A DNA stretch of 64,000 bases, from positions 3,454,501 through 3,518,500 of the forward strand of contig NZ_CP078138.1 in assembly GCF_019212185.1 (NCBI RefSeq), in the 5' to 3' direction. Positions 38,346-50,057 of this stretch are shown here, in pieces (position 1 is the stretch's first letter; each line of letters starts with the position of its first letter). The position numbers and the translations under genes were made by a program. The notes beneath the pieces are model-generated. The model was not told the origin of the DNA, searched no databases, and worked only from the letters and a program-made list of their open reading frames with translations. Source of the DNA: Pseudomonas fluorescens. Lineage in GTDB: Bacteria; Pseudomonadota; Gammaproteobacteria; Pseudomonadales; Pseudomonadaceae.

Positions 38346-39209
38346 ATGCTGGTTCCCTTTCTGATCATGCTGCGCGAAGGCATTGAGGCGGCGCTCATCG
38401 TCGGCATCATTGCCAGTTACCTCAAGCAAACCGGGCGTGGGCAATGGCTGCCCGCGGTGTGGATCGGCGTGTTTCTCGCCGCCGCGCTGGCGCTGCTGGT
38501 GGGTGGTGGCCTGGAACTGCTCAGCGCTGAATTCCCGCAGAAACAGCAGGAATTGTTCGAAGGAGTGATCGGTCTGGTGGCGGTGGCCATCCTCAGTTCG
38601 ATGGTGTTCTGGATGCGCAAGGTCGCGCGTTCGATCAAGCATTCACTGCAGCTTTCGCTGGAAGCGGCCATGACCGGCTCGCGGCATCAGGTCACCGCGC
38701 TGATCGCCATGGTGTTTTTCGCCGTGGCCCGCGAAGGCCTGGAAACCGTGTTCTTCCTCCTGGCCGTGTTCCAGCAGAGCGAAGGCCCCGGCGCACCGAT
38801 CGGCGCCCTGCTCGGCCTGCTGCTGGCGATTCTCATCGGCTGGCTGATCTACAGCGGCAGCCTGCGCCTGAATCTTTCAGCGTTCTTTCGCTGGACCGGA
38901 CTGTTCATCCTGGTGGTGGCCGCCGGGATTCTCGCCAGTTCGGTCCAGGCCCTGCATGAGGCCGGGGTCTGGAACGACCTGCAGGAGGTGGTGTTCGACA
39001 TCAGCGCCAGCCTGCCCGTGGACGGCCCGCTGGGCTCGGTGCTGGCCGGCATGTTCGGCTATCAGGACGCGCCGACCGTCAGCACCCTGGGTGCCTACCT
39101 GATGTACCTGGTCGTGGCGTTGCTGATGTTTTTCCTGCCAGCCGGCTCTGGCGACAAACCGGTCACCACCCCGACTTCTTCCGTTTCCCGTCAACAAGGG
39201 CACTCATGA
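38346..39209 (+). CDS. efeU: Iron permease EfeU (FTR1 family)
   Basis: This is a 287-aa inner-membrane iron permease with seven hydrophobic segments. The two REXXE motifs that carry iron in FTR1/EfeU are present: LREGIEAALIVG (residues 9-20) and VAREGLETVFFL (~130-141). ATG at 38346 starts MLVPFLIMLREGIE, the family start. It overlaps efeO by 4 bp. It takes up ferrous iron together with EfeO and EfeB. Confidence 0.93.
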   Translation: MLVPFLIMLREGIEAALIVGIIASYLKQTGRGQWLPAVWIGVFLAAALALLVGGGLELLSAEFPQKQQELFEGVIGLVAVAILSSMVFWMRKVARSIKHSLQLSLEAAMTGSRHQVTALIAMVFFAVAREGLETVFFLLAVFQQSEGPGAPIGALLGLLLAILIGWLIYSGSLRLNLSAFFRWTGLFILVVAAGILASSVQALHEAGVWNDLQEVVFDISASLPVDGPLGSVLAGMFGYQDAPTVSTLGAYLMYLVVALLMFFLPAGSGDKPVTTPTSSVSRQQGHS

Positions 39210-40405
39210 CCAGTCAGCCACCGTTTTCCCCACCGCCGGCGCGTGCCTTGCGCTGGGCCCTGGCCGGCTCGGTGATCGTGATGATCGCTGCTGGCGGGTT
39301 GTTCTACTACGCCTCGAACATGGCCGCCGCCAAGCGTCAGGCCCATCTCGGCGAGATCACCGTCAACATTGACGCCCACAGCTGCGAGCCCAACGCCCTC
39401 ACGGTCGCGGCGGGACACAGCAGCTTTCGCATCGTCAACCGCTCCGAACGGGCGGTGGAGTGGGAAATCCTCGACGGCGTGCTGGTGCTTGAAGAACGGG
39501 AAAATATCGCCCCAGGCTTGAGCCAGGTGATTAATGCGAATCTGCAGCCGGGTGACTACAGCATTACCTGTGGCCTGCTGAGCAACCCACGCGGCATCTT
39601 GCACGTAACCCCGACCGCTGCCTCTAATGCTGCGGCCAAGGCCCGACCGTCACTGATAGCCTTTGTGGGCCCGTTGTCGGAGTTCCGCGTTTACCTCAAT
39701 GGCCAAAGCAATGCGCTGATCAAGGCGGTTGGCGCCTTGCAACAGGCCATTGATGCCGGCGATCTCAACCAGGCGCAGGCACTGTACCTGACGGCACGGG
39801 TGGCCTATCAGCGCCTGGCACCGGCGGCGCAACGCCTGTCGGAGCTGGACAACGCGATCAATGCTCGCGCCGATTACTTCGAGCAGCGCGAGCAGGATCC
39901 ACAGTTTGTCGGCTTCCACCGCATCGAATACGGCCTGTTCCAGCAGCGCAGCACGACAGGCCTGAACAGCATCGCGGCGCGCTTGCTGGCTGACGTCAGC
40001 CAGCTCAAGCCACAACTGTTGGCGCAATCGCTGCCACCCGAACAACTGGTCAGCAGTGTGGTGCGCAACCTGCGCAGCCTGGCTGATGTGCGAGCAACCA
40101 GTGGCGAGGAGGAACGCTACAGCCACCTCGACCTCAACGGTTTTGCCGCCAATCTCGAGGCTGCCCGCAAAGTCTTTGAGCTGTTGCGTCCGTTGCTGAG
40201 CAAGGGCAACGGCCCGTTGCTGGAGCAGATCGATCGCAGCGCCACGGCCCTTGATGCCGAACTCGACAGCCTGCGGCTGAAGGATGGCTACCGCCATTAC
40301 GACAGCGTCGACCCTGACAGGCGCAAACGCATCGCCGACCAAGCCAGGACATTGGCCGACGCACTCGACGCAATCGATCCCGCCCTTGGCCTTTCCGGCC
40401 TGTAA
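39206..40405 (+). CDS. efeO: Periplasmic iron-uptake protein EfeO (cupredoxin + M75 domains)
   Basis: The 399-aa protein has an N-terminal membrane/signal segment (ALRWALAGSVIVMIAAGGLFYY). A cupredoxin-like domain (~50-130) follows, with Cys residues in HSCEPNAL and SITCGLLSNP, then the M75 peptidase-like (imelysin) domain (~150-395) with the HxxE motif in FHRIEYGLF. EfeO is the periplasmic partner of EfeU and is thought to bind iron through these domains. It sits between efeU (4-bp overlap) and efeB (16-bp gap). Confidence 0.92.
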   Translation: MTSQPPFSPPPARALRWALAGSVIVMIAAGGLFYYASNMAAAKRQAHLGEITVNIDAHSCEPNALTVAAGHSSFRIVNRSERAVEWEILDGVLVLEERENIAPGLSQVINANLQPGDYSITCGLLSNPRGILHVTPTAASNAAAKARPSLIAFVGPLSEFRVYLNGQSNALIKAVGALQQAIDAGDLNQAQALYLTARVAYQRLAPAAQRLSELDNAINARADYFEQREQDPQFVGFHRIEYGLFQQRSTTGLNSIAARLLADVSQLKPQLLAQSLPPEQLVSSVVRNLRSLADVRATSGEEERYSHLDLNGFAANLEAARKVFELLRPLLSKGNGPLLEQIDRSATALDAELDSLRLKDGYRHYDSVDPDRRKRIADQARTLADALDAIDPALGLSGL

Positions 40406-40421
40406 GCAGAAGACCCCACTG

Positions 40422-41720
40422 ATGAACGATCCAGATCAAATCAACGCCCAACGCCGCCGCGTCTTGCTTGGCATGGGTGCCGCCGGCGTCGCACTCGCCG
40501 GCAGCAGCTTGAGTTGCCCGGCCATGGCCGCCAATCCGGCGCCCGTCACCGTGGCCCCCAGCAGTGAGAAAACCCACGAGCGCCAGGCCTTTCATGGCCT
40601 GCACCAGAGCGGCATTGTCACACCGCGACCGACCTCGGGCATGCTGGTGTCGTTCGATGTGCTGGCCACTGACCGCAAGGATCTGGAGCGCCTGTTCCGC
40701 ACCCTCGATCAACGCATCGCCTTTCTCATGCACGGCGGACCGGTGGCCGAGGTCGACCCGAAACTGCCGCCCGTGGACTCCGGAATTCTTGGCCCGGTGG
40801 TGACCCCGGACAACCTGACCATCACCGTGTCGGTGGGTGAGTCGCTGTTCGACGAACGCTTCGGCCTGGCCGCGGCCAAGCCCGGACGGTTGATCCGCAT
40901 GGTCGGATTTCCCAACGATGCGCTGCAGCCGGACTATTGCCATGGCGACTTGAGCCTGCAGTTTTGTGCCAACAGCATCGACACCAATATTCATGCCCTG
41001 CGCGACATCCTGAAAAACCTGCCGGACCTGCTGGCGGTGCGCTGGAAACAGGAAGGCAGCGTGCCGCCGCAGGCCCCGCGCAAGCCCGGCGAACCGGCGC
41101 AAAGTGCGCGCAATTACCTGGGTTTTCGCGACGGCTCGGCCAACCCGGACTCCAACGACCGGCCGTTGATGAATCAGCTGGTGTGGGTCCAGCCCGGCGG
41201 CGACGAACCGGCCTGGGCCAGCCATGGCAGCTATCAGGCGGTGCGGATCATCCGCAACCTGGTGGAGCGCTGGGACCGGACGCCGCTGCAGGAGCAGGAA
41301 AGTATTCTGGGCCGGGTGAAAACCAGCGGCGCACCGATTGGCGGTCAGCATGAAAGCCAGGTCCCGGATTACGCCAAAGATCCCCAGGGCAAGCTGACCA
41401 AACTCGATGCCCACATCCGCCTGGCCAACCCGCGCACCGCGCAGACCCAGGCCAACCGGATCCTGCGCCGGCCGTTCAACTACTCCAACGGCGTGAGCAA
41501 GAACGGCCAACTGGAGATGGGCCTACTGTTCATCTGTTACCAGGCTGACCTGCACAAGGGCTTTATCACCGTGCAGAACCGGCTCAATGGCGAGCCTCTG
41601 GAGGAGTACCTGAAGCCGATTGGCGGTGGGTATTTCTTCACGCTGCCTGGGGTCACCGATGACAAGGATTTCATTGGTCGTTCGCTGCTTGATGCCACGC
41701 AGCCGAAAACCTCGGTTTGA
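40422..41720 (+). CDS. efeB: Dyp-type deferrochelatase/peroxidase EfeB
   Basis: This 432-aa exported haem peroxidase carries a Tat signal ([20 protein letters not shown]). The Dyp GXXDG-type motif is in [13 protein letters not shown] (~residue 231-243). In EfeUOB systems it works in the periplasm with EfeO and has been proposed to oxidise ferrous iron or release it from haem. ATG at 40422 is chosen because it precedes the Tat motif properly; a longer frame from 40284 would overlap the efeO coding sequence. Confidence 0.93.
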
Positions 41721-41785
41721 TCGTCATCTCCCGCTCCTACAAAGATCGGCACTTTGATTTTCCCACCCACCCGCGGAACAGTCCC

Positions 41786-42610
41786 ATGAAAAAGTCGTCT
41801 CTCGCTTTGCTGGTCGCCCTTGGTTTGCTGCACGCCCCCGCTTCGGTCTTCGCCGCCACCGCGCCGCTGGACCTGGTGGGGCCGATTTCTGATTACAAGA
41901 TCTACGTCACCGAACAGCTTGATGAGCTGGCCAGTCATACCCAGGCCTTCACCACGGCGGTGAAGCAAGGCGATCTGGCTACCGCGCAAAATCTCTACGC
42001 GCCGACGCGGGTGTACTACGAGTCGATCGAACCGATCGCTGAGTTGTTCAGCGATCTCGACGCCTCTATCGACTCGCGGGTCGATGACCACGAGCAAGGC
42101 GTCAAGGCCGAAGATTTCACCGGTTTCCACCGTATCGAATACTCGTTGTTTTCCGAGAAGAGCACTCAGGGACTGGACGCCCTGGCCGATGGCCTGGACA
42201 AGGACGTCAAGGACCTGCAAGCACGGGTTGCCGGCCTGACCTTCCCGCCTGAGAAAGTCGTCGGCGGCGCTGCAGCGTTGCTCGAAGAAGTGGCCGCGAC
42301 CAAGATCTCCGGTGAGGAAGACCGCTACAGTCACACTGACCTCTACGACTTCCAGGGCAACATCGACGGAGCGAAGAAAATCGTCGAGCTGTTCCGCCCG
42401 CAACTGGAACAGCAGGACAAGGCTTTTGTGGCCAAGGTCGACAAGAACTTTGCCAGCGTCAACACGATCCTCGCCAAGTACAAAACCGCTGACGGTGGCT
42501 TTGAGACGTACGACAAGGTCAAGCCGAACGATCGCAAGGCGCTGGTCGGACCGGTCAACACCCTGGCTGAGGATCTGTCGACGCTGCGGGGCAAGCTGGG
42601 CTTGAACTGA
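41786..42610 (+). CDS. EfeM-like secreted M75 (imelysin) domain protein
   Basis: This 274-aa protein has a Sec signal ([23 protein letters not shown]) and a single M75 domain, [19 protein letters not shown], with the HxxE motif in FHRIEYSLF. It resembles the second half of EfeO (39206-40405) without the cupredoxin domain, which is the definition of EfeM-type proteins. It lies 65 bp after efeB and ends before a hairpin, so the operon is probably efeU-O-B-M. A role in periplasmic iron delivery is inferred from the family. Confidence 0.88.
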
Positions 42611-45919: not shown

Positions 45920-46195
45920 CTACGGCAGCGGATTGCCCCCGGTCACACCAAATACTTCGCCGGTGATGTAACAGGACTCCTGGAGGCCAGAAACACATAG
46001 AGTGGTGCGCATTCTGCGGGCTGGCCGGGGCGCTTCATAGGGGGGTGACCGCCGAAGTCGGCGATTTTCTCCCGGGGCTGGCCGCCGCTGGGTTGCAACA
46101 CGTTCCAGATCGGCCCCGGCGCCACCGCATTAACCCAAATGCCGTGTTCGATTACCTGCTTGGTCAGAGCCTTGGTCATGGCGACGATGAAAACA
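45920..46195 (-). pseudogene. Remnant of an SDR-family oxidoreductase gene
   Basis: Only the last third of an SDR remains. Reading begins around [22 protein letters not shown] (~46190) and passes [20 protein letters not shown], then loses frame near 45975-45990. Shifting by one base restores the usual ending [19 protein letters not shown] and a TAG at 45920-45922. The NAD-binding and active-site parts are missing; upstream sequence is unrelated. It is thus a truncated and frameshifted relic. The 450-bp gap 45913-46362 otherwise holds the probable promoter of the four-gene operon that follows. Confidence 0.75.
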
Positions 46196-46362
46196 AAGCC
46201 TGTACAGGTAGAAAGCAAGGTCGTGTGGAAGGTTTGGAATTTTTCCTCGATGGCCGACAGACGGGGCGGCCAGCCCGCTGCAAAGAATTTGAACTCCGGA
46301 AAAAACCGTCTCTCACAATGCATATGCAGGCACAGCCGCCGCGCAGATATTGGGGGAGAAGG

Positions 46363-47403
46363 ATGATGGACGTATCGACTGTGCAGGACTCCATGAGCCA
46401 GTTGCTCGCTGAATTCGCCGGGCGTGGGGCCCCTCTCGAACTGGACCGACGCCTGCCCGAGTTATTGCAAGCTTGCATCGAGGCAGGCCACACCGACCTG
46501 CCGCTGCCCGGTCACGGCCATACGTTGCAACGCTGGCGCAGTCTGGCCCAGGTTGCCGGTGCCGACCTGGCGCTGCTCAAGCTGTACGAAGGCCACACCG
46601 ATGCCCAGGCGATACTTGCTGAATTGCACGCGCAGGCATTGAACCAACCGGGTATCTGGGGGGTGTGGGCCGCTGAACCGCCGAATGCCAAAGTACAGAT
46701 TGTTGCTCGTGAGCAAGGTCGGGTACGCCTCAGTGGGACCAAGGCCTGGTGCTCTGGCGCACTGCAAATCGAGCACGCATTGCTCACCGCCTGGGATGAA
46801 CAACAACGGCCGCAATTGGTCGCGCTGACCCTGGCGCAACCGGGTGTCAAACTGCGCAGTGACGACTGGCAGGCACGCGGCATGGCGCTGACCGCCAGCG
46901 CGAATGTCGAGCTGGATCACGTGTTAGCGGACTGCGTCGGCATCAGCGGCGCTTATGTTCAGCGCCCGGGTTTCTGGCAGGGCGGCGCGGGGATCGCCGC
47001 CTGCTGGTATGGCGCGGCCCAGGCGCTGGCCGAGCGTCTGCGCAAGCAGTGCAGCGGCCCGCGCGAGGATCCTCACGCCCAGGCCCATCTGGGTGCCGTC
47101 GATGCAGCCCTGCAGGGCGCCGCCGACAGCCTGCGCCAGTGCGCGGCATGGATTGACCAGCAGCCTGACGCCGATGTCGAGTTGATCGTGCGTCGCACCC
47201 GGGCCCAGGTCGAAGCGTCGGTGGAACAGGTGCTCTGGCATGTCGGTCGGGCATTGGGCGCCACACCGTTTTGTCGTGATCCGCAGTTCGCCCGCTTGAG
47301 CGCCGACTTGCCGGTGTTCATCCGTCAAAGCCACGCCGAGCGTGACCTGGCGGAACTGGGGCGGCAACTGGCTGCCGATGCGCGCCAGGGCTGGTGCCTA
47401 TGA
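46363..47403 (+). CDS. Acyl-CoA dehydrogenase-like flavoprotein, first gene of an uncharacterised four-gene operon
   Basis: The 346-aa protein has the acyl-CoA dehydrogenase plan but is short (usually ~380 aa). [19 protein letters not shown] and [14 protein letters not shown] match the mid-domain. The C-terminal end is [23 protein letters not shown], which lacks the YEGT Glu of normal dehydrogenases and looks more like the HxxD-type end of flavin monooxygenases or type 2 members (DszC-like). It may therefore be an oxygenase or an unusual oxidase. Start ATG 46363 (or 46366) follows GGGGGAGAAGG. Its stop overlaps the PIG-L gene by 4 bp. Confidence 0.8.
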
Positions 47404-48167
47404 GCGAGGATGCGGAAAAATCTTTTCACGGCACCGGTACCACCCTCGCCCAGTGGCAAGCCTCTCGGGCCTTGCAATCAGTGCCGACGATTTCCCGCGA
47501 TCTGCTACTGCCCGCTGGCCACCGGCTGGTGGTGGTGGCGCCGCATCCGGATGACGAGGTGCTGATGTGTGGCGGCCTGCTGGCCAATCTGGCGGTGGAC
47601 GACAACGAGTTGCTGCTGATTTCCGTGACTGACGGCACCGGCAGTCATCCGGACTCGACCCTGTGGCCGGTGGAACGGCTGCACAGAGAGCGTCCTCGGG
47701 AAAGTGCCGAGGCCCTGTCGCGCCTTGGCTTCGATCCGCGCACGGTTGAATGGCGGCGCCTGGAGCTGGCCGACAGTGCCGTCGCCGACAGTCACGAAAT
47801 CCTGCTTCAACAACTCTGTGCAGTCCTGCGCAGCGGCGACCGCGTGCTCACCACCTGGCGCCATGACGGCCACTGCGATCACGAAGCCGTGGGCCGCGCC
47901 TGCGCCAGTGCCTCCAGGCGATGCCAGGCGCAGTTGCTGGAGGTTCCCGTCTGGGCCTGGCACTGGGCACATCCCGAGGATCCGCGTCTGCCCTGGCTAC
48001 GGGCACGCAAGCTGGCAGTGCCGGCCCATACCCTCGAACGCAAGCGCGCGGCCCTCGCCGCCCACCGCAGCCAAGTGCTGGCCGACCCGAGTACCGGGCG
48101 TCCGGCGATTCTTTCTACGGCGACCCTGGAGCGCCTGCTGCAACCTTTCGAACTGGTATTCCTATGA
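47400..48167 (+). CDS. PIG-L family deacetylase
   Basis: This 255-aa, zinc-dependent N-deacetylase fold (LmbE/MshB/BshB/PIG-L) has the metal motif APHPDDEVLMCGG (residues ~47-59, HPDDE at 49-53) and the distal TWRHDGHCDHEAVGRA (~150-165), both intact. Such enzymes remove an acetyl group from N-acetylglucosaminyl compounds. Genes on both sides overlap it by ATGA, so it works in the same pathway as the methyltransferase and glycosyltransferase. The substrate is unknown. Confidence 0.9.
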   Translation: MSEDAEKSFHGTGTTLAQWQASRALQSVPTISRDLLLPAGHRLVVVAPHPDDEVLMCGGLLANLAVDDNELLLISVTDGTGSHPDSTLWPVERLHRERPRESAEALSRLGFDPRTVEWRRLELADSAVADSHEILLQQLCAVLRSGDRVLTTWRHDGHCDHEAVGRACASASRRCQAQLLEVPVWAWHWAHPEDPRLPWLRARKLAVPAHTLERKRAALAAHRSQVLADPSTGRPAILSTATLERLLQPFELVFL

Positions 48168-48763
48168 GCCTGGACGCGACCTACTTCGAGCAGTTGTTCA
48201 CCGCCGACCCCGACCCCTGGGCCTTGGGCAATCGCTGGTACGAGCAGCGCAAGCGCGCCCTGACTCTCGCGGCGCTGCCCCGGCAACGTTATGCGCGGGC
48301 GTTCGAACCGGCCTGCGCCAATGGCGACCTGAGTGCCCTGCTCGCCCCCCGTTGCGAGCACTTGCTGTGCATGGACGCCAGTGCCACCGCCACGCAACTG
48401 ACCTGCCAGCGCTTGCAGTGCCAGCCGCAGGTCGAAGTGCGGCAGGGGCATTTGCCCGCCGACTGGCCCGAGGGTGAGTTCGAACTGATCGTCCTCAGCG
48501 AGTTTGGCTACTACCTCGACAGCAGCGACTGGGCTCAGGTAATCGACCAGGCGCAAGCCAGCCTCAGCCCCCAGGGTTCACTGCTGGCCTGCCACTTCTT
48601 GCGGCCAATGGCCGAGTGTCCGCAAACCGGGCAACAGGTGCACGAGCAGTTGCAGGCGCGGCTGGACCTGGTGCGTGTGATGCAGCACCGGGAAGCGGAT
48701 TTCCTGCTCGAACTCTGGTGCCGCGAACCTGGCGGCGTGGACCTTGAGGAGCCGTGCTTATGA
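48164..48763 (+). CDS. NodS-like SAM-dependent methyltransferase
   Basis: The 199-aa protein starts YFEQLFTADPDPWALGNRWYEQ, typical of NodS-type N-methyltransferases. SAM-binding motif I is RAFEPACANGDLSALLA (~residue 40-56) and the post-motif is FELIVLSEFGYYL. NodS methylates the free amine left after deacetylation of Nod-factor sugar. Here it directly follows a PIG-L deacetylase gene (4-bp overlap) and precedes a glycosyltransferase gene, so N-methylation of a deacetylated amino sugar is a reasonable but untested idea. Confidence 0.88.
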   Translation: MSLDATYFEQLFTADPDPWALGNRWYEQRKRALTLAALPRQRYARAFEPACANGDLSALLAPRCEHLLCMDASATATQLTCQRLQCQPQVEVRQGHLPADWPEGEFELIVLSEFGYYLDSSDWAQVIDQAQASLSPQGSLLACHFLRPMAECPQTGQQVHEQLQARLDLVRVMQHREADFLLELWCREPGGVDLEEPCL

Positions 48764-49416
48764 TCGGTGTCGTCGTTCCTGCCCATAATGAACAAGCGCT
48801 GCTCAAGGACTGCCTGGAGGCACTGCGGTGTGCGGCCGATGAGGCCGGCGAAGAGGTGCGAATCCTCGTAGTGCTCGACGCCTGCACCGACCGTTCCCGG
48901 GAAATTGCCCAAGCCTGCGGGGTGCAGACCCTGGAGATTGAGGCCGGCAATGTCGGCTATGCGCGGCGCGCCGGTGCCGCCCATTTGCTGGATCAGGGAG
49001 CGCGCTGGCTGGCCTGCACCGACGCCGACAGTCGAGTGCCAGGCAATTGGTTACGCCAGCAACTGGCGTTCAACGCCGATGCGGTGTGCGGTACGGTGAG
49101 TATCGAGGAGTGGGATCCGCTGCATTCACCCGAAGTACGCCAGCGCTACCAGAGCCTGTACCAGTCCCATGAGGGCCACCGGCACATCCACGGCGCCAAC
49201 CTGGGGGTCTGCGCCGAAGCCTATCGGCGCGTGGGTGGCTTCCAACCGCTGGCGGTGCACGAGGACCGCTACTTGATCGAAGATCTGCAGCGTAGCGGCG
49301 CGAGCATCGTCTGGACCGCGCTCAACGGTGTGCGCACCAGCAGCCGTCTGGATTGCCGGGCCCAGGGTGGTTTCGGCGATTACCTGAAGGCGCTGGCGCG
49401 GGAGGGCGAAGCTTGA
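48760..49416 (+). CDS. Family 2 glycosyltransferase
   Basis: The 218-aa GT-A fold enzyme begins IGVVVPAHNEQALLKDCLEAL. The DxD-like motif is CTDADSRVPGNWL (residues ~87-99), and HGANLGVCAEAYRRVGGF and EDRYLIEDLQ complete the acceptor half. No membrane segment is seen, so it is a soluble or peripheral enzyme. It is the last gene of the operon (4-bp overlap with the methyltransferase). The sugar and acceptor are unknown. The frame before the ATG also has a GTG at 48754, less likely. Confidence 0.9.
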   Translation: MIGVVVPAHNEQALLKDCLEALRCAADEAGEEVRILVVLDACTDRSREIAQACGVQTLEIEAGNVGYARRAGAAHLLDQGARWLACTDADSRVPGNWLRQQLAFNADAVCGTVSIEEWDPLHSPEVRQRYQSLYQSHEGHRHIHGANLGVCAEAYRRVGGFQPLAVHEDRYLIEDLQRSGASIVWTALNGVRTSSRLDCRAQGGFGDYLKALAREGEA

Positions 49417-49430
49417 AGGGTTAAGCCGCG

Positions 49431-50057
49431 TCAACGGCGGCGTACTACCCTCACCCGGCCACTGTTGCCACCGCCACAGAAAAACCGCTCGCCGCCATCC
49501 GACTCCAGCCCCGACACGCCAATGCCGGCGGGCATGCGCAAGGTTTCGAGGACTTCTGCGGTTTGCGGATCGATCCGGCGGATCTCGCTTTCCTCACCTT
49601 CCCAAGTGCCGTGCCAGAACTCACCGTCGACCCAGGTCACCCCGGTGACAAAGCGGTTCGATTCCAGGGTGCGGAGGATCTTCCCGGTCTGCGGGTCGAG
49701 TTGGTGAATCTTGCGGCCCTGGTACTGACCGACCCACAGCGAGCCCTCGGCCCAGGTCAGCCCTGAATCGCTGTCGCCTGGCGCCGGGATAGTGCTGAGT
49801 ATGTCTCCGGTCTGTGGGTCGATTTTATGAATCGAATTCTCGGCGATCTGGTACAGGTAACGGCCATCGAAGGCGGTGCCGGCATCGGCGGGCATGGCGA
49901 AGTTGCGCTGGGTCTTGCCGTCCTGTGGGTCGAATGCAGTGAGTCCCTGATTGTTGGCGAACCACACACGCTCACCGTCCCAGGTCACGCCGTGGACACT
50001 CTGCACACCCTCGAAGGGGCCGTATTCCTGCACGATGGTTGCGGCTGACTGTTTCAT
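49431..50057 (-). CDS. Beta-propeller protein, glutamine-cyclotransferase/Vgb-like repeats
   Basis: The 208-aa protein is made of ~40-residue repeats ending in IDPQTGDIL, LDPQTGKILRTL and IDPQTAEVLETL, each with a GVTW or GLTW element (residues ~20-195). These are blades of a small beta-propeller of the glutamine cyclotransferase/PQQ-repeat sort. No signal peptide is seen. Four to five blades are visible, fewer than the usual five to seven. It lies 32 bp after the HTH gene on the same strand. Its function is not recognised. Confidence 0.72.
   Translation of the reverse strand: MKQSAATIVQEYGPFEGVQSVHGVTWDGERVWFANNQGLTAFDPQDGKTQRNFAMPADAGTAFDGRYLYQIAENSIHKIDPQTGDILSTIPAPGDSDSGLTWAEGSLWVGQYQGRKIHQLDPQTGKILRTLESNRFVTGVTWVDGEFWHGTWEGEESEIRRIDPQTAEVLETLRMPAGIGVSGLESDGGERFFCGGGNSGRVRVVRRR

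Follow-up and report, generated by a model that had tools for sequence, protein, structure and literature searches.

Four overlapping genes at positions 46363-49416 of a 64,000-nucleotide stretch of Pseudomonas fluorescens DNA (NZ_CP078138.1, positions 3,454,501 to 3,518,500, forward strand, set in a 6.34-Mb chromosome; hereafter the window) are a genuine conserved unit. We read them, with slightly better than even confidence, as one biosynthetic cassette by which an amino sugar would be attached, deacetylated, N-methylated and oxidised, the Pseudomonas product probably being linked to stationary phase or stress. An earlier note on this DNA had described four + strand genes joined by three ATGA overlaps, and all were recovered at exactly the positions it gave:

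46363..47403, + strand: gene 1, flavoprotein of the acyl-CoA-dehydrogenase (ACAD) fold, 346 amino acids (aa); open reading frame (ORF) calls, full ACAD fold in the model, DszC the best PDB sequence match
47400..48167, + strand: gene 2, PIG-L (LmbE) family predicted deacetylase, 255 aa; Pfam, HPDDE and GHCDH motifs intact
48164..48763, + strand: gene 3, NodS-related S-adenosylmethionine (SAM) methyltransferase, 199 aa; Pfam and PDB profile matches
48760..49416, + strand: gene 4, family 2 glycosyltransferase (GT2), 218 aa; Pfam, one GT-A domain, TDAD and ED motifs
47400..47403, + strand: ATGA stop/start overlap from gene 1 to gene 2; from the sequence, kept in relatives
48164..48167, + strand: ATGA stop/start overlap from gene 2 to gene 3; from the sequence, kept in relatives
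48760..48763, + strand: ATGA stop/start overlap from gene 3 to gene 4; from the sequence, kept in relatives

The family calls of the note held by Pfam for three of the four proteins. Gene 2 scored 88.3 bits against PF02585 (cut-off 28.2), which places it in the PIG-L de-N-acetylase superfamily; gene 3 scored 29.6 bits against the NodS model PF05401 (gathering cut-off 24), with a general methyltransferase model slightly above it at 33.9 bits; and gene 4 scored 55.1 bits against PF00535 (Glycos_transf_2, cut-off 23.3), with DXD-type and ED motifs and a GT-A fold. The flavoprotein reached 22.5 bits with the acyl-CoA-dehydrogenase middle domain, under the cut-off of 33.3, so that its call failed by Pfam and was upheld by fold, since an AlphaFold model built on a 53-sequence alignment (pLDDT, the predicted local distance difference test, 91.6) spans the complete ACAD fold.

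Conservation of the cassette

Conservation was followed in the best 80 of 102 matching loci (the named loci; 79 from Pseudomonas and one from Duganella), which were chosen by the flavoprotein alone. A standard PIG-L gene and the methyltransferase gene were each present in 79 of the 80 blocks and GT2 in 71, on the same strand in 67 and on the opposite strand in four; linkage therefore exceeds chance, because loci selected for one gene nearly all hold its partners. An ATGA or GTGA lies on the flavoprotein stop in 80/80 loci, on the PIG-L stop in 75/79 and on the methyltransferase stop in 71/79. One block, L117, consists of the flavoprotein and a PIG-L of a second type, with the rest of the cassette absent from it.

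Lists of positive genomes were compared for a single sample of 149 Pseudomonas genomes: 92 have the flavoprotein, 91 the methyltransferase and the same 91 a strong GT2 match. The sole flavoprotein genome devoid of the other two (G076) holds a flavoprotein fragment only, and the gene is also broken in some other genomes, split in two in G052 and G080 and interrupted by an internal TGA in G018 and G050. Twelve additional genomes gave GT2 matches that were all below 60 bits. The PIG-L family occurs in 121 genomes, including 91 of the 92 that are flavoprotein-positive, a count that exceeds that of the cassette because of a second paralogue and of lone copies. Genes that do not adjoin the block are mostly still retained: GT2 lies more than 30 kb off or on another contig in 10/91 genomes, and PIG-L is located elsewhere in G003 and G144.

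Among 398 genomes of the phylum the flavoprotein was detected in 30, all of which carry the methyltransferase, while the cassettes of G473, G489 and G536 were missed by the single-sequence flavoprotein search. In nine genomes PIG-L was sought by profile; seven have none beside the flavoprotein, and five of these carry one at another place, at a distance of 12 kb in G284 and of more in the other four, the same search finding none in G466 and G399. Seven flavoprotein matches came from 369 genomes sampled at class level, a set partly shared with that of the phylum, and four of the seven lie in new genomes: a full set on a 6.7-kb contig (G739), all four genes (G701), a flavoprotein and PIG-L that reach the start of their contig (G621) and the flavoprotein alone (G566). 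The set recurs in families other than that of the window. The earlier note had named a failure of the genes to co-occur in other genomes as fatal to its proposal; the neighbourhoods surveyed across Pseudomonas and the phylum gave the opposite result.

The methyltransferase and its kinship with NodS

A profile of the family of METHYLTRANSFERASE, the cassette methyltransferase, matched PDB entry 4isc with 229 bits over 164/190 profile positions and NodS with 106 bits, the next matches scoring 55 bits and below. By these profile matches the methyltransferase is related to NodS, as the earlier note had proposed, and NodS (NF041650; PDB 3ofj/3ofk) is its closest characterised relative, each enzyme accompanying glycosyltransferase and deacetylase genes. 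The two are nevertheless distinct: gene 3 reaches 54.6 bits with the NodS equivalog model, far under its cut-off of 300, whereas the NodS genes of L203, L205 and L206, the three of five covered by that scan, score 332-351 bits; and domain and family scans found no nodA, nodB or nodC relative beside the window's cassette. Entry 4isc is named only 'Methyltransferase', a name that gives no function, and no paper treating 4ISC as a Pseudomonas methyltransferase was found; from its score it is very probably a cassette-type methyltransferase with a solved structure.

The company kept by this family is informative. The profile gave 49 matches in the 398 genomes, comprising 33 cassette enzymes (one, at L201, fused to PIG-L), nine fusions with a CE4 deacetylase, five NodS proteins and two stand-alone copies, in G472 and as a second copy in G415. 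Outside cassettes, 13/16 matches are accompanied by a deacetylase gene or domain, the others being one NodS on a short stretch and the two lone copies. The CE4 fusions (L196, L197, L202 and L208-L213; ORFs of 753-1218 aa) include a CE4 part in 9/9 cases and a GT2 part in 8/9, L211 having no GT2 in its ORF; domains were assigned by Pfam in three proteins and by similarity to L196 in all nine. Like the cassette, eight of these proteins unite GT2, NodS-like methyltransferase and de-N-acetylase, here in a single chain, although CE4 replaces PIG-L, a flavoprotein part is absent and the genome families partly carry nod genes too. One limited literature search found no account of GT2, NodS-like and CE4 fusion proteins. 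The L196 fusion (L196:5373-8381) lies among other GT2 genes. As for the NodS loci, L203 and L205 hold relatives of NodA, NodB, NodC and NodU, L206 and L207 relatives of NodB and NodC, and L204 no nodB or nodC relative within the 10-kb stretch available.

This distribution is the best evidence, by association, that the family may methylate de-N-acetylated sugars. The logic of glycosyltransferase, deacetylase and N-methylation is backed because the methyltransferase is naturally fused to CE4 nine times, eight of them with GT2, and once to PIG-L, and the predicted order of deacetylating and then N-methylating an amino sugar is well supported, if unproven. The NodC/NodB/NodS-like logic put forward in the earlier note accordingly stands as far as these fusions and the NodS kinship go and is not borne out as homology, since the GT2 has no NodC match and the PIG-L no NodB match. 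In a midpoint-rooted tree NodS and three CE4 fusions were joined with support of 100, cassette enzymes of another class being nearest to them at a weak support of 65; this arrangement does not prove the origin of NodS.

PIG-L and glycosyltransferase

The best PDB relatives of the PIG-L profile are TT1542 and the de-N-acetylases of diacetylchitobiose and of bacillithiol and mycothiol precursors. Cassette copies keep the HPDD zinc motif in 79/79 cases, and wherever the second motif was readable by pattern, in 72 copies, its His is present. Family and zinc motif, both common to BshB1, MshB and the diacetylchitobiose deacetylases, suggest a de-N-acetylase, with an amino sugar as its presumed substrate. 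Scores with the bacillithiol and mycothiol deacetylase models TIGR04001, TIGR04000 and TIGR03445 (41.1, 27.8 and 19.5 bits) nevertheless lie under their cut-offs (182.5, 195.25 and 224.35), and the gene partners differ from those of BshB1 and MshB. The NodC/NodB models TIGR04242/TIGR04243 were not listed at E 0.001 for either the GT2 or the PIG-L protein; NodB belongs to the polysaccharide-deacetylase group rather than to PIG-L. The 218-aa GT2 was modelled as a single domain of GT-A fold (pLDDT 92.3), with fold scores that did not tell its sugar donor apart, and it fell short of the arsenosugar glycosyltransferase (TIGR04283, 50.4 v 182 bits) and MftF (TIGR03965, 37.8 v 280 bits) models.

A further PIG-L gene lies downstream of the block in 59 named loci, giving 60 second-type copies when that of L117 is counted, and sits downstream of GT2 in L059, L060, L114 and most other glgX-linked Pseudomonas loci. 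HPGD replaces HPDD in 58/60 of these copies and the second-motif His is present in 0/47 readable ones, so that this conserved paralogue is, judging from its motifs, probably not a normal deacetylase; it was not seen adjoining the window's cassette. In the same genome as the window, L151 (G000:C1:1446000-1458000) carries another PIG-L-family gene in what was judged by eye to be a gallate-type catabolic cluster, and we take this gene to be probably a GalB-kind hydratase rather than a deacetylase.

Additional glycosyltransferases accompany some copies. In Pseudomonas genome G023 the GT2 is adjoined by three others, namely another GT2, a GT4 and a GT1-like protein that scores below the Pfam cut-off. 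All three have relatives at the L145 and L147 cassettes and weaker ones at L139; the GT1-like gene is found in 7/149 Pseudomonas genomes, all flavoprotein-positive.

L145:1572-5685; L147; L166:7538-11189: additional glycosyltransferase genes of GT4, GT1-like and second-GT2 type, lying with the cassette or with its GT2

The flavoprotein

Sequence and fold relatives of the flavoprotein include the flavin monooxygenases DszC, MsuC and TdsC, the SfnB family and the nitrososynthases KijD3 and DnmZ. In the PDB search DszC came first with 63.8 bits, followed by acyl-CoA dehydrogenases (47), MsuC (44) and the two nitrososynthases KijD3 (40) and DnmZ (36). Two equivalog scores were far below cut-off, the best NCBIfam match being SfnB (46.7 v 430.9 bits) and the DszC model NF043015 giving 23.6 v 850 bits. 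Six acyl-CoA-dehydrogenase-like proteins from the same genome were aligned with the flavoprotein, and in three of them the YEG(S/T) loop has its catalytic Glu at the position of Gln322, which is invariant in 25/25 rows of the family. The reading of gene 1 as an acyl-CoA dehydrogenase was rejected on account of this substitution; the other three proteins also have no loop Glu in a comparison limited to that site, and isovaleryl-type enzymes carry their catalytic Glu at an alternative site. The flavin-site residues Ser163 and Trp205 of DszC have counterparts in Ser131 and Trp169, whereas DszC His92 and Tyr96 align with Lys73 and Gly77. Fold scores did not separate oxygenase from dehydrogenase. 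These comparisons suggest, with modest confidence, a flavin-dependent oxygenase or oxidase.

Genomic context and the link to stress

The end of glgX and the start of the flavoprotein gene are no more than about 100 bases apart in 64/79 named Pseudomonas loci. This glgX belongs to a trehalose/glycogen operon and, on contigs that extend far enough, comes after treZ, malQ, treY and a small DUF2934-like gene. In the other 15 loci, ligD lies within the locus in nine (five also with ku) and neither gene in six. GlgX, MalQ, TreY, LigD and Ku types were checked by Pfam, and TreZ and DUF2934 were named by eye. In P. syringae the cassette presumably follows glgX as PSPTO3131-3134. One report names an operon of that species, PSPTO3125-3130, running from glgA to glgX, and does not name the genes that follow (PMC8982409). 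According to two others, the trehalose operons of Pseudomonas are responsive to stress of the osmotic or water kind (PMC8084333), and the sigma factor EcfG controls a series of glycosyltransferase genes together with Ku and GlgX, which depend on it (PMC6599016). Catalase, Ku and LigD genes come after the cassette at L145, a locus from a different class of the phylum. Production in stationary phase or under stress is proposed because most named Pseudomonas loci adjoin trehalose/glycogen genes or the DNA-end-joining ligase. This setting of the relatives was out of sight of the earlier note, which drew on the sequence of the window only. As a separate observation, two Pseudomonas loci without the flavoprotein (L178 and L179, in G007 and G134) keep a lone PIG-L adjoining LigD, with Ku near.

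Two results limit the stress link. The window's own copy of the cassette has neither glgX nor ligD adjoining, and markers fixed beforehand from the Pseudomonas loci were not enriched outside the genus, at 4/29 cassette loci v 4/40 control stretches (Fisher p 0.45). With post-hoc markers, added after looking and not counted at their own source locus, the figures were 17/29 v 5/40 (p 6e-5). Both counts are to be read with the design in mind: nearly all control stretches, each of 18 kb, came from the same genomes as the cassette loci, some of the cassette loci cover less sequence than the controls, and loci are not independent, since several share a genus. Five further loci unused in marker choice included two with markers, namely L255, with GlgX beside flavoprotein and PIG-L, and L260 (G415), with Ku and LigD beside the extra, stand-alone methyltransferase copy; L254 has the flavoprotein alone, and L256 and the short L257 are full cassettes with no marker. 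For Pseudomonas we therefore regard the stress link as likely; for other bacteria it is unproven.

A proposed pathway and its alternatives

In the pathway that we favour, the GT2 would add an N-acetylated amino sugar to an acceptor, PIG-L would strip the acetyl group and the NodS-type enzyme would methylate the freed amine. The flavoenzyme, in which the usual dehydrogenase glutamate is lost and two DszC flavin-site positions are kept, may oxidise, perhaps at nitrogen, either the amino-sugar conjugate or one of its precursors; this is the weakest step, and the order is not fixed. From the position of the genes, the Pseudomonas product would probably be made in stationary phase or under desiccation or osmotic stress.

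The alternative that survives best, though we consider it unlikely, is that the cassette modifies a larger existing molecule, such as a glycolipid, a surface glycan or a glycoprotein, rather than a free small molecule. The three extra glycosyltransferase genes that accompany versions from another class of the phylum (L145, L147 and, more weakly, L139), the same three beside GT2 in G023, and the setting of the L196 fusion among other GT2 genes would fit such a role, but the GT1-like gene is present in just 7/149 Pseudomonas genomes and the four cassette genes include neither an exporter nor a polymerase. Less probable still is a different chemistry, in which PIG-L would be no deacetylase and the methyltransferase would act on oxygen or another atom to give an O-methylated glycoside: PIG-L homologues do include a hydratase (PDB 5cgz, among the matches), and gene 3 is far from the NodS cut-off, yet the intact HPDD and second-motif His of the cassette PIG-L copies, together with the deacetylase genes or domains that accompany 13/16 non-cassette methyltransferases, argue for deacetylation. 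Two last readings, both very improbable, were rejected because model scores lie under cut-off and NodA, NodB and NodC matches are absent among the four proteins. A low-molecular-weight thiol pathway could claim the weak likeness of PIG-L to BshB1 (41.1 bits, cut-off 182.5) and the pairing of a glycosyltransferase with PIG-L in both the mycothiol and bacillithiol routes, but the four genes hold no cysteine-adding ligase, MshA and BshA are GT4 rather than GT2 enzymes and, to our knowledge, neither a methyltransferase nor a flavoenzyme takes part in those pathways. A Nod-factor-like lipo-chitooligosaccharide signal would draw on the NodS kinship, against which stands also the common occurrence of the cassette in free-living pseudomonads.

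Surroundings of the window's copy

The window's own surroundings were dropped as an explanation, since no recurrence of its neighbours was noticed when gene order was tabulated for the named loci, apart from antisense and kinase/permease-type cluster matches. These neighbours, named by eye, are EfeO/EfeB-like proteins, sensor kinases and a permease; upstream, at 39206-42610, EfeO-like, EfeB/Dyp-like and second EfeO-like genes form a cluster apparently of the Efe iron-uptake type. A 126-aa ORF on the - strand at 45943-46323, immediately before the cassette, matches only residues 200-281 of 300 of the short-chain dehydrogenase/reductase (SDR) oxidoreductase family PRK06128 and is an apparent remnant. 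The only promoter candidate is a weak lead:

46291..46317, + strand: candidate AlgU-like promoter, GAACTC-N16-TCACA, upstream of gene 1

A loose AlgU-like motif occurs in 6/19 upstream stretches, the window included, vs about 2% of random stretches, and four of the six are closely alike; a strict AlgU motif and an RpoS -10 motif were each found in 0/19, and no sigma-70-like site was found in 46000-49600. An AlgU-like promoter upstream of gene 1 is thus weakly suggested by the motif.

Significance

No paper on the gene set or its product was found in the open-access literature (subscription papers were not covered), which agrees with the earlier note, where no characterised pathway with this set was known. 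The biosynthetic logic is already known from Nod factors, while no precedent was seen for the combination of genes, for the flavoenzyme or for the hosts. A unit for which no published product was found is present, by its flavoprotein, in 92/149 sampled Pseudomonas genomes and in other proteobacteria. On a wider view, which we hold only tentatively and think rather less likely than the cassette reading itself, a stress-linked, N-methylated and further oxidised amino-sugar conjugate would be common to several orders and at least two proteobacterial classes (the second probably Alphaproteobacteria), and rhizobial NodS would be a late recruit from an older, non-symbiotic methyltransferase family. 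The cassette is small, mostly intact and easy to delete or express, so that direct experiments can ask which amino-sugar compound it makes and when. In 4isc a solved structure very probably exists for its methyltransferase family, and the cassette offers a non-symbiotic background against which the origin of NodS may be studied.

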